Source: Mucilaginibacter cryoferens
GTDB lineage: Bacteria; Bacteroidota; Bacteroidia; Sphingobacteriales; Sphingobacteriaceae
Length of the DNA: 40,264 nucleotides
Direction: 5' to 3'
Assembly: GCF_014205845.1 (NCBI RefSeq)
Contig: NZ_JACHCR010000038.1
Coordinates: forward strand, 1 to 40,264
Shown: positions 2,629-6,276 of the stretch, one piece after another
Position numbering within the stretch: the stretch's first letter is position 1
How the letters are laid out: each line of letters begins with the position of its first letter
Notes under the pieces: generated by a model
Told to the model about the DNA's origin: nothing
The model's input: the letters and a program-made list of their open reading frames with translations, nothing else
Databases searched by the model: none
Made by a program: the position numbers and the translations under genes

Positions 2629-3516
2629 TCATCTGCCTATACTTGGCGTATGCTGCCGTGTTTGCTGTATTTCCTTTTCCTGCTGTTGCTGTTTCTTCAA
2701 TTCCTCTTGCTGTTGCCGTAACACTTGCGCCTGCCTGTTTTGTTCTTGTTGCTGTAAAAGCGGTTCCTGTTTTAGCTTCTTCTCAATATCCATCAGAGCA
2801 TACCCAACTTGACTGCCTTTGAAGCGTACATGCTGCGCATCGGTAAAAGCGATACCCCGGCCTAACTCCACTTCGTAACCCCGCTGCTCCATATACTTTT
2901 TGACCTGCTGCACATCCTTGCTTTGTTTGATTGCTGCTTGCAGGTGCTTTTTTAAAGCCTCTTTGCGGCTGTCTAAACGCTGGCTTTGTGCAACCCTTTG
3001 CTCCGGCTTCAAAAACTTATTGGGGCTTAAAACCCGCTCTAATTTGTATTCTATCTCCATCTTCCGGGCGAACTCGGCCACATGCTTATAGCTGTTGCTG
3101 TCACTGGCTGTTTTGCCGTCGAAGCCGATTCGGTTGGCGACAATATGCATGTGTTCATGATCGGTATCTTTGTGCGCTACAACTACATACTGGTGGTCTT
3201 TGAAATCGAATTTTTCGGCCAGCTTTTCTACCATGTCTATTTTATCCTGCAAGCCTAACTTCCCGGCATCGCTGTGGGCGAAGCTTAACGAAAAGTGAAA
3301 CACCGGCTTTGATTGATAAGGGTTTAGCTTGGCTACTTCGATCATTTCCCGCACCAGTTCTAACCGGGTGCCGAAGCATTGGTTATAAGCAATCACCTCC
3401 ACCTGTTTCTTTTCAAGCTCCTGCATTTGCAGCTCTTTGTTTTCCTGCCGCCTGCCCTCAAAGAGGTAATGTAGTACGCCTCGGAAACTTTTGCCTGTGC
3501 CAACTTTCCCGATCAT
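2629..3516 (-). CDS. Relaxase / mobilization nuclease (MobA/VirD2-like, HUH)
   Basis: Relaxases nick one strand at oriT and pilot it during conjugative mobilization. This 295-residue protein begins MIGKVGTGKSFRGVLHYLFEG; Tyr17 is a candidate nucleophile. The metal-binding motif HKDTDHEHMHIVANR spans residues 115-129 (His120, His122, His124), matching the three-His HxHxH cluster of the PF03432 relaxase family. The C-terminal third is Gln/Lys-rich and coiled. It overlaps the upstream MobC-like gene by 4 bp (ATGA), indicating translational coupling, and a coiled-coil membrane protein follows. At 295 residues it is shorter than the roughly 400 recalled for many Bacteroidota relaxases, but the missing part would be the variable tail. 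The element would be mobilizable rather than self-transmissible, since no transfer genes are seen. Confidence 0.9.
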   Translation of the reverse strand: MIGKVGTGKSFRGVLHYLFEGRRQENKELQMQELEKKQVEVIAYNQCFGTRLELVREMIEVAKLNPYQSKPVFHFSLSFAHSDAGKLGLQDKIDMVEKLAEKFDFKDHQYVVVAHKDTDHEHMHIVANRIGFDGKTASDSNSYKHVAEFARKMEIEYKLERVLSPNKFLKPEQRVAQSQRLDSRKEALKKHLQAAIKQSKDVQQVKKYMEQRGYEVELGRGIAFTDAQHVRFKGSQVGYALMDIEKKLKQEPLLQQQEQNRQAQVLRQQQEELKKQQQQEKEIQQTRQHTPSIGR

Positions 3517-3935
3517 GATACATAGGCATTAATATTCTTCACCAAGCCACGCAGGCTGCGCACATCCTGATCGAGCAAAGCCCTTTCCATCGCATTCAGA
3601 TCATCGCCCCGGTTGCGCCGCTTTGCGATCTGGTTGAGGTTGGCGGCGATGTGATTGAGCGTACCGCGCATTTCCAAAACAGATTTTGGCAGGGTCTTGA
3701 CCCTGACCTCTATCCGCGTATTCAATCCCAGGTTTCGCAGGAAAACCGACGGGTTCATGCCTACTCGTTTAGCGTTGGCTTCAATGATCTTTTTCTCGAT
3801 GAGCGTACACATTACGCTCACGCTGCTGCGCCGTTTATGTGGTACGTTCGGGCGGCCACCACGGTTCACCCGGCCCAAAGGGGCCGGGTCTTTTGTATTT
3901 ATTTTCTTTTTAACTTGACTTTCCATAAGCTTCAA
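3513..3935 (-). CDS. MobC-like relaxosome accessory protein
   Basis: This 140-residue basic protein has an N-terminal tail rich in Lys/Arg, a ribbon-helix-helix-like segment at about 35-75 (SSVSVMCTLIEKKIIEANAK) and the motif LNHIAANLNQIAKRRN at about 94-109, the hallmark of MobC-type mobilization proteins (PF05713). MobC proteins bind near oriT and help the relaxase open DNA at the nick site. The gene overlaps the relaxase start by 4 bp. Its own 5' end faces the hairpin array at 3961-4401, which may be its binding region or contain oriT. The start at 3935 is the first ATG; a second Met three codons later is also possible. The family call is firm from the motif and position. Confidence 0.85.
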   Translation of the reverse strand: MKLMESQVKKKINTKDPAPLGRVNRGGRPNVPHKRRSSVSVMCTLIEKKIIEANAKRVGMNPSVFLRNLGLNTRIEVRVKTLPKSVLEMRGTLNHIAANLNQIAKRRNRGDDLNAMERALLDQDVRSLRGLVKNINAYVS

Positions 3936-3960
3936 TTCGTTAAAAAATCCTCAAAAAATC

Positions 3961-4401
3961 CCCCCGAATGCGATAGCATGAGCGGGGGCCAGCAAGTTTC
4001 GGCATGGCCGAAACATAGCTGGCTCCGCTTACAGGCCAAAGGCCTGTTCCGCTATCTGTATATATGGCTATCGCCATATATACAGAGGCTGTTTGGGCAG
4101 CACCAAGGTGCTGCCCCGCCAAAAGCGGCTTGCCGCTTTCGCGGTTCTTCAATAATCGCTATAGCGATTATTGGGCTATTCAAACGGTGGCACCAAAGGT
4201 GCTGCCTGTTCTTTCCGGCGGCTTGCCGCCGGGTCTGTTTTACACCCGCCTGCGGGTGTCGGGCTTTCAGCATACCGCTCGCGGTATCGCTGATCTGGCG
4301 ATCCTTTTTACCGATGGGCACCAATGGTGCCCATCGGTACGCTGCCCAATCACGGCGGGTGTGTCGGGCTGCGTTCAAAAAGCCGTTTACTTTTTGACGC
4401 A
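3961..4401. repeat. Array of about 13 short-loop hairpins with mostly different stems (candidate oriT or structured RNA)
   Basis: Perfect or near-perfect inverted repeats follow one another. Arms are 3961-3966/3983-3988 (with inner 3968-3971/3976-3979), 3997-4003/4007-4013 (inside 3988-3993/4018-4023), 4031-4037/4041-4047, 4055-4068/4073-4086, 4095-4104/4107-4116, 4122-4129/4132-4139, 4150-4159/4164-4173, 4186-4194/4198-4206 (two G-T pairs), 4215-4222/4225-4232, 4242-4249/4252-4259, 4268-4278/4281-4292 (one bulge), 4309-4322/4326-4339, and 4370-4382/4390-4401 (one bulge). The first twelve loops are 2-4 nt and every one is closed by 5'-C...G-3'. Their centres are 25-35 bp apart up to 4280, then 44 bp. 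Spacers of 5-12 nt loosely repeat GGCTGTTT or TCCGCT. Most stems differ in sequence. The array lies between the HTH gene and the mob operon and is not coding. Confidence 0.9.
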
Positions 4402-4480
4402 CTTAAGATCGCCTGTAATGCCGTTAACTTAATTTTACCGCTAATGATAGGGATGGTAGTTTCCATACGCTCCATTGGCC
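4402..4480. other. Short spacer between the hairpin array and the HTH gene
   Basis: This stretch lies just downstream of the HTH gene's stop in transcription order. It has no clear terminator T-run, so the array may be transcribed as part of a long HTH-to-mob transcript. Confidence 0.3.
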
Positions 4481-4831
4481 TTAAAACGATTTGGATTTTT
4501 TACTTCCGGTTGTCAGATGCTGTAACGCATCTTCCCGGATTTCATCCGCCGTTTTCTTCCGGCCAGACTTAATCCATTCGGTTAGTTCCGAACGATAGAA
4601 ATACAGGCGTTTCCCGCGCTTATTAACAGGGATTTCTTTACGGCATACTTTACTGTAAACGGTAGGGACGGCCAGGTCTAAAAATTCGGCGGCCTTTGTG
4701 ATGGGCATAAGCTCTTCCTGCTCTGGTGACTGTTCTTGCCGACTGATTAAAAGCTGTTCTATGTTGTCCAGCTTTTCTTGCATTTTAGTTACCGCCTCGG
4801 GTAACTGGTCAAAGGTGAGTGTATCTTTCAT
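4481..4831 (-). CDS. Helix-turn-helix excisionase-like protein (HTH_17)
   Basis: This 116-residue protein has a coiled N-terminal segment (residues 8-35) and then a winged-helix/MerR-like excisionase domain at about 42-90: MPITKAAEFLDLAVPTVYSK followed by IPVNKRGKRLYFYRSELTEWI. This is the HTH_17 pattern of Xis-like proteins in Bacteroidota integrative elements, which bend DNA at att sites or activate excision and mobilization genes. It sits between the 381-residue unknown gene and the hairpin array and mob genes, a common place for this family. It could equally be a transcription factor for the mob operon. The domain call is firm; whether it acts in excision or in regulation is open. Confidence 0.82.
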   Translation of the reverse strand: MKDTLTFDQLPEAVTKMQEKLDNIEQLLISRQEQSPEQEELMPITKAAEFLDLAVPTVYSKVCRKEIPVNKRGKRLYFYRSELTEWIKSGRKKTADEIREDALQHLTTGSKKSKSF

Positions 4832-6182: not shown

Positions 6183-6202
6183 TTAAATCATTGATTTTCA
6201 GG

Positions 6203-6276
6203 CTCCTGAGGCTGGGCTCGAACCAGCGACCCTCTGATTAACAGTCAGATGCTCTAACCAGCTGAGCTACTCAGGA
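6203..6276 (-). tRNA. tRNA-Asn (anticodon GTT)
   Basis: The minus strand from 6276 folds as a 74-nt cloverleaf: a 7-bp acceptor stem TCCTGAG/CTCAGGA, a D-arm with AGCTGGTTA, an anticodon stem TCTGA/TCAGA around loop CTGTTAA (anticodon GTT), a 5-nt variable loop GGGTC, a T-arm GCTGG/CCAGC with TTCGAGC, and discriminator G. The CCA end is not fully encoded. A good promoter lies upstream and a terminator downstream. Its 3' end faces the mobilization module, the usual geometry for a tRNA used as an integration site. Confidence 0.97.

Follow-up and report, generated by a model that had tools for sequence, protein, structure and literature searches.

In RP4 and ColIb the primase travels with the transferred strand, and in NBU1 a primase is found by the oriT, the order being primase-oriT-relaxase. 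To our knowledge, second-strand synthesis after transfer of the mobilizable elements of Bacteroidota has been little studied. A primase is named among the genes required for mobilizable transposons in a passage of PMC4755523. Part of PMC4595007 describes sso1 of ICEBs1, a single-strand origin downstream of oriT that helps second-strand synthesis, and passages of PMC9849209 and PMC11541004 describe Frpo, which folds to rebuild -10 and -35 promoter boxes. In origins of the MOBP type, according to a section of PMC3772185, the nick is made after a repeat, in a conserved nick region with the consensus (C/T)ATCCTG(C/T) located 3' of the repeat. Among the papers listed by a literature search, none described a hairpin array at an oriT such as the one reported here.

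The stretch of DNA analyzed (the window, 40,264 nt) is the complete contig of genome G000. Its nearest named relatives belong to Mucilaginibacter, very probably the genus of the source as well. The original prediction had described one array of twelve or more hairpins in it; direct inspection of the sequence located the named hairpins where they had been placed, with centers mostly 25-35 bp apart as claimed, but the first two belong to the oriT and are separate from the array. The hairpins thus form two modules, the oriT core (3961-4025) and the array proper (approximately 4031-4340, ten hairpins). The predicted loops of 2-4 nt do not hold for hairpins 5 and 10 in the following list of features, nor do the predicted arms of 4-14 bp for hairpin 10.

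2629..3516, minus strand: relaxase gene, PF03432 (MobA/VirD2-like; Pfam)
3513..3935, minus strand: mobC, NikA-like, PF21983 (Pfam)
3961..3988, minus strand: motif hairpin between the oriT repeat and mobC, with TCATGCTATCGCATTC (inner ATGC/GCAT) in a variable stem
3988..4023, plus strand: oriT inverted repeat (strict pattern), inner arms 3996-4014, outer arms GCCAGC/GCTGGC
4014..4023, plus strand: putative nic region CATAGCTGGC on the presumed transferred strand, placed by the conserved flank and the MOBP rule
4031..4047: array hairpin 1
4055..4086: array hairpin 2, 14-bp stem, seven pairs with double-sided changes
4095..4116: array hairpin 3, lost in locus L062
4122..4139: array hairpin 4, nearly invariant
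4150..4173: array hairpin 5, gapless 12-bp palindrome (no loop), four pairs with double-sided changes
4186..4206: array hairpin 6
4215..4232: array hairpin 7
4242..4259: array hairpin 8
4267..4293: array hairpin 9, two-tiered, not present in L067 or L068
4309..4339: array hairpin 10, 15-bp arms with a formal loop of 1 nt, missing from some homologues
4375..4397: weaker outlying hairpin
4481..4831, minus strand: HTH_17 protein gene (Pfam) on the far side of the array, pointing towards oriT
6201..6276, minus strand: tRNA-Asn

Upstream of mobC the hairpins are followed by the HTH_17 gene, a 381-aa ORF with no Pfam match, and the tRNA-Asn, which perhaps marks the attachment side of the element. 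Of the 12 other array loci, L057 and L058 have the same tRNA-Asn near the array; it is near none of the remaining 10 scanned, among which L061 has a tRNA-Ser. No att repeat or copy of the tRNA end was detected in the 40,264-nt window; the tRNA-end repeat was likewise absent from 30 kb of genomes G320 and G288, and a crude pattern search of the same 30 kb detected no integrase.

Of 301 genomes from the family, 59 matched with relatives of MobC, and 64 loci were taken from genome contigs. The inverted repeat CTATGTTTYGGY..RCCRAAAC lies upstream of mobC in 56 of these 64 loci by a strict pattern, and four or more of the remaining eight show a variant of it. The locus has one mark of a MOBP-type oriT, an inverted repeat beside a relaxase gene and an accessory gene that is conserved across relatives. 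The core alone was matched in 16 of the 22 matching genomes from a sample of 399 family genomes; plasmids gave no match, and the oriT pattern was not matched in viral contigs. At least four hairpins within 400 nt beside oriT are present in only eight of the 64 MobC loci, most loci being without an array. The suggestion that the hairpins are an oriT was thus right as to location and holds for the first two hairpins only, the array being a separate, optional module across the putative nic from them. By eye, TCATGCTATCGCATTC or a close variant occurs in one to four copies with differing stems in many of the 64 loci; across Bacteroidota the hairpins that carry it vary freely in their stems, with as many as four copies in tandem in L098, and it perhaps serves in termination or MobC binding.

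On the array side of the oriT, seven of the eight free positions next to CTATG are conserved at 1.5-2.0 bits, and the other flank reaches at most 1.4 (40 distinct loci; CTATG, a requirement of the search, is left out of the count, and length changes lower the values of the other side). Given that the conserved flank faces the array and that MOBP origins are nicked after the repeat, nic would be expected near 4015-4022 on the plus strand, with the array on the leading side and entering the recipient first. We infer this position rather than read it from a match, because the oriT core has no exact copy of the hexamer ATCCTG, its nearest sequence being CATAGCTGG. Junctions in L003 and L061 were considered as relaxase events and clues to nic; an IS110-family transposase adjoins the L003 junction, and the reading was dropped for both loci together. 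An IS110-family transposase and a long non-coding side join the oriT at AG-CT-ATG in four loci (L069:3315-4880, with PF01548 and PF02371; L071:700-2262; L087:2152-3906; and L153), whose MobC proteins belong to two lineages and among which L087 and L153 may be near-identical strains. L069 has a DUF5712 gene on the far side; its match with L071 and L087 reaches as far as that gene or extends into it. In L069, L071 and L087 the non-coding side holds AGCTATGT, identical to the target, as a bridge-RNA guide might.

A DNA search with the array matched nine of 149 Mucilaginibacter genomes, the window's own included, with at most four candidate places scored per genome. The match in G304 covers only 35 nt; apart from it and the window's own genome, the seven others give at least 12 long homologues of 74-94% identity. 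All 12 share one orientation and 11 of them run into an oriT, while L061 breaks off within the first nucleotides of the oriT; the gene upstream of the array varies by eye. The arrays seen are confined to Mucilaginibacter.

An alignment of 11 sequences was used for covariation analysis, leaving out L065 (Ns) and the short L068. Pairing is kept in 97.2% of its 993 stem cells, in agreement with the claim that structure is conserved over sequence, and at ten loop-closing pairs C-G occupies 100 of the 107 cells, as had been noticed in the window. Compensatory changes in the arms, which had been proposed as a check on homologues, were found: 15 of 94 pairs have changed on both sides, compared with 5.9 +- 1.5 in shuffles (0 of 500 as high) and 1-4 in slid controls. 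The count is eight without the seven pairs of 4055-4086, a stem that occurs in two versions, which may reflect a cassette swap instead of stepwise compensation. In the same alignment further pair types are not in excess (21 vs 21.8 in shuffles). The mean majority fraction is 0.942 in stems, 0.885 in spacers and 0.771 in loops. On the mobC strand the stem mismatches comprise 10 G.U and 11 A.C cells, five of the latter in one row, so that no strand bias is seen in the 11 sequences; a cruder count gave 25 G.U and 49 A.C in 13 sequences with the first hairpin poorly aligned.

Folded as DNA, the plus strand from 3961 to 4345 forms hairpins that mostly stay separate, with an energy of -126 kcal/mol and a z of -14.1 relative to 100 dinucleotide shuffles. 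For the minus strand folded as RNA z is -12.7, and its best fold merges two of the hairpins; the predictions prefer neither strand, nor DNA over RNA. With a cluster threshold of arms of at least 7, loops of 0-5 and gaps below 60, the window cluster has six hairpins and those of other array loci 4-11; L068 and its duplicate L072 fall under four, as do the second hairpin sets of L086, L088, L090 and L099. A background of 1.2 Mb (60 stretches picked from three array-bearing genomes) contained two clusters of four hairpins and none of five or more. One four-hairpin cluster of this sample, L217:12222-12411, has two hairpins with like stems (TTTGTG..CACAAA). Some long ORFs overlap the array, which is very probably non-coding because indels of 1-2 nt separate its homologues in the loops and spacers. 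Between 3900 and 4500 there are only two-copy direct repeats of 8-20 nt, and the array is indeed unlike a CRISPR, REP or attC element. Rfam gave nothing near thresholds for the hairpin region, and TAnnTTTG, which we take to be the Bacteroidota -7 motif, occurs on neither strand of 3901-4520.

In relatives without an array, the ORF abutting the oriT on the array side usually encodes a CHC2/Toprim primase (identified by Pfam in the example L018 and by profile search in other loci). A set of 80 distinct oriT loci was compiled by removing near-duplicates (at most 3 mismatches in 250 nt) and six known duplicates and by dropping pattern-less loci, with an array locus defined as one with at least four hairpins in 400 nt. 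A primase gene is present in 0 of 18 array loci and 43 of 62 array-less loci, and 36 of the 43 genes end 17-62 nt from the oriT repeat. In the 19 array-less loci without a primase the flank is 72 nt in one case and 1.4-4.9 kb in the others. Within Mucilaginibacter the counts are 0 of 18 and 10 of 16, the primase hit being short or fragmented in three of the ten (L075, L078 and L085). In a smaller overall set of 72 loci, a primase was present in 0 of 17 array loci and 42 of 55 others. Locus L009 of G225, which is below the hairpin threshold, has more hairpins by eye. Fisher's test yields p = 5e-8, a value that ignores kinship and is too good; all arrays seen are from one genus, so there are few independent events.

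Five of the 18 array loci have hairpin sets of different sequence in the same slot. Hairpin sets that differ in sequence from that of the window occupy this slot beside the oriT in L002, L086, L088, L090, L099 and L148, L002 being a second mob locus within the window's own genome. AACAG, a motif picked after looking, occurs on the mobC strand in three of nine spacers of the window set (shuffle mean 0.19), and in two of three spacers in L148, none of five in L086 and one of four in L088.

One mob module is found with either neighbor. Locus L057 is 96.9% identical to the primase-bearing L080 over 4046 bp from the oriT onwards, and 96-97% identical to L080, L081 and L082 over a stretch that starts 5 nt ahead of the oriT core and extends across the mob genes; its MobC shares 93-94% identity with the MobC proteins of L080-L082 and 54% with that of the window. 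The array side of L057, in contrast, matches the window at 92.6-94.0% as part of a 2,088-bp match of 91.6%, and L080 agrees with it there at only 45-47%. The junction lies within the oriT core. No primase hit was obtained in 30 kb around the L057 array or around the array at 2.96 Mb of G320, while the control L080 was detected.

The simplest account is that array and primase serve the same step, second-strand priming, and on balance we narrowly favor the reading that the array is a multi-hairpin single-strand priming site replacing the primase of the element. A single-strand origin located downstream of an oriT has a precedent in sso1 of ICEBs1. The plus strand, once nicked at the MOBP-type oriT (3961-4025), would enter the recipient 5' end first, and the array, beside the oriT on the presumed leading side, would make up the few hundred nucleotides that come in first. 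In single-stranded form it could fold like beads on a string; its hairpins would most likely keep SSB off and offer the short spacers to the host primase or RNA polymerase, either of which might then start the complementary strand; the array would do in cis the job done in trans by the CHC2/Toprim primase of relatives. The folded single-strand structure put forward in the original prediction is favored by position and primase exclusion, with the transferred strand assigned by the reasoning given above. Against priming, the single-strand priming sites known to us have one to three hairpins, not ten. More tentatively, and with somewhat less than even confidence, the array may represent a single-strand origin of a new type, built as a module of about ten hairpins selected for structure only, that took over from a conjugative primase encoded by the element, array and primase being traded among elements through exchange at nic. 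On this reading, the differing hairpin sets found in one slot suggest more than one origin of the arrangement among Mucilaginibacter elements.

Four other explanations were weighed. It is unlikely that the array is a structured leader RNA of the mobC-relaxase operon, as the original prediction also suggested, in which a minus-strand transcript would fold and control expression or termination: mobC is directly downstream, the RNA fold is strong (z -12.7) and one hairpin has G.U as its outermost pair in four of 11 sequences, but G.U is not in excess over A.C (10 vs 11), 62 of the 80 oriT loci of relatives lack an array, the array of L057 goes with a MobC that shares only 54% identity with that of the window, and neither an Rfam family nor TAnnTTTG was found. 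Rather unlikely is a passive by-product, i.e., leading modules exchanged at the oriT that carry relic hairpins kept perfect by quasi-palindrome correction while the DNA is single-stranded, with no priming. The equal numbers of G.U and A.C mismatches suit such a strand-blind process, as do the clean swap at the oriT in L057 and the loss of hairpins in some copies (L062, L067 and L068), and a swap of array and primase by exchange at the oriT without common function is possible; however, near-invariant stems such as 4122-4139, the conserved spacers (0.885) and the constant place at the oriT suggest selection. A single-strand promoter similar to Frpo, at which the folded strand would recruit RNA polymerase for leading genes with priming secondary, is likewise unlikely. 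The presumed leading position, the HTH_17 gene directed towards the oriT and the ability of Frpo to rebuild promoter boxes by folding agree with it, but no annotated gene lies between the array and the putative nic, where the RNA would run, TAnnTTTG is absent from the array, and ten hairpins would be unnecessary. A chance cluster of unrelated dispersed palindromes, suggested by the unlike sequences of most hairpins, is refuted by the twelve homologues, the covariation, the z of -14 and the 1.2-Mb background, and has practically no probability left.

If the priming reading is true, the array is a compact site for priming and needs no machinery other than the host's. L057 (array) and L080 (primase), on 97% identical mob modules, are a natural pair, and the question of array versus primase is therefore directly testable.

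Known systems near to the array include sso1 of ICEBs1 and the sso's of rolling-circle plasmids. Compared by description with the part of PMC4595007 on ICEBs1 sso1, the array is similar in being non-coding, hairpin-forming and beside the oriT of a mobile element; sso1 has three stem-loops with a sequence like that of a plasmid sso, whereas the array has about ten with changing stems and is from a different phylum. With Frpo/ssi of F-like plasmids, as described in passages of PMC9849209 and PMC11541004, it would share the leading region, a folded transferred strand and a primer RNA (proposed for the array), but Frpo rebuilds one promoter in a stem-loop and the array is without TAnnTTTG. The oriT resembles the RP4-type MOBP oriT in its inverted repeat with conserved flank, its PF03432 relaxase and its PF21983 protein, and differs from it in having CATAGCTGG as the nearest sequence to the nick hexamer. 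In Bacteroidota mobilizable elements with a primase, the primase gene occupies the same slot beside the oriT, and the array stands in its place.
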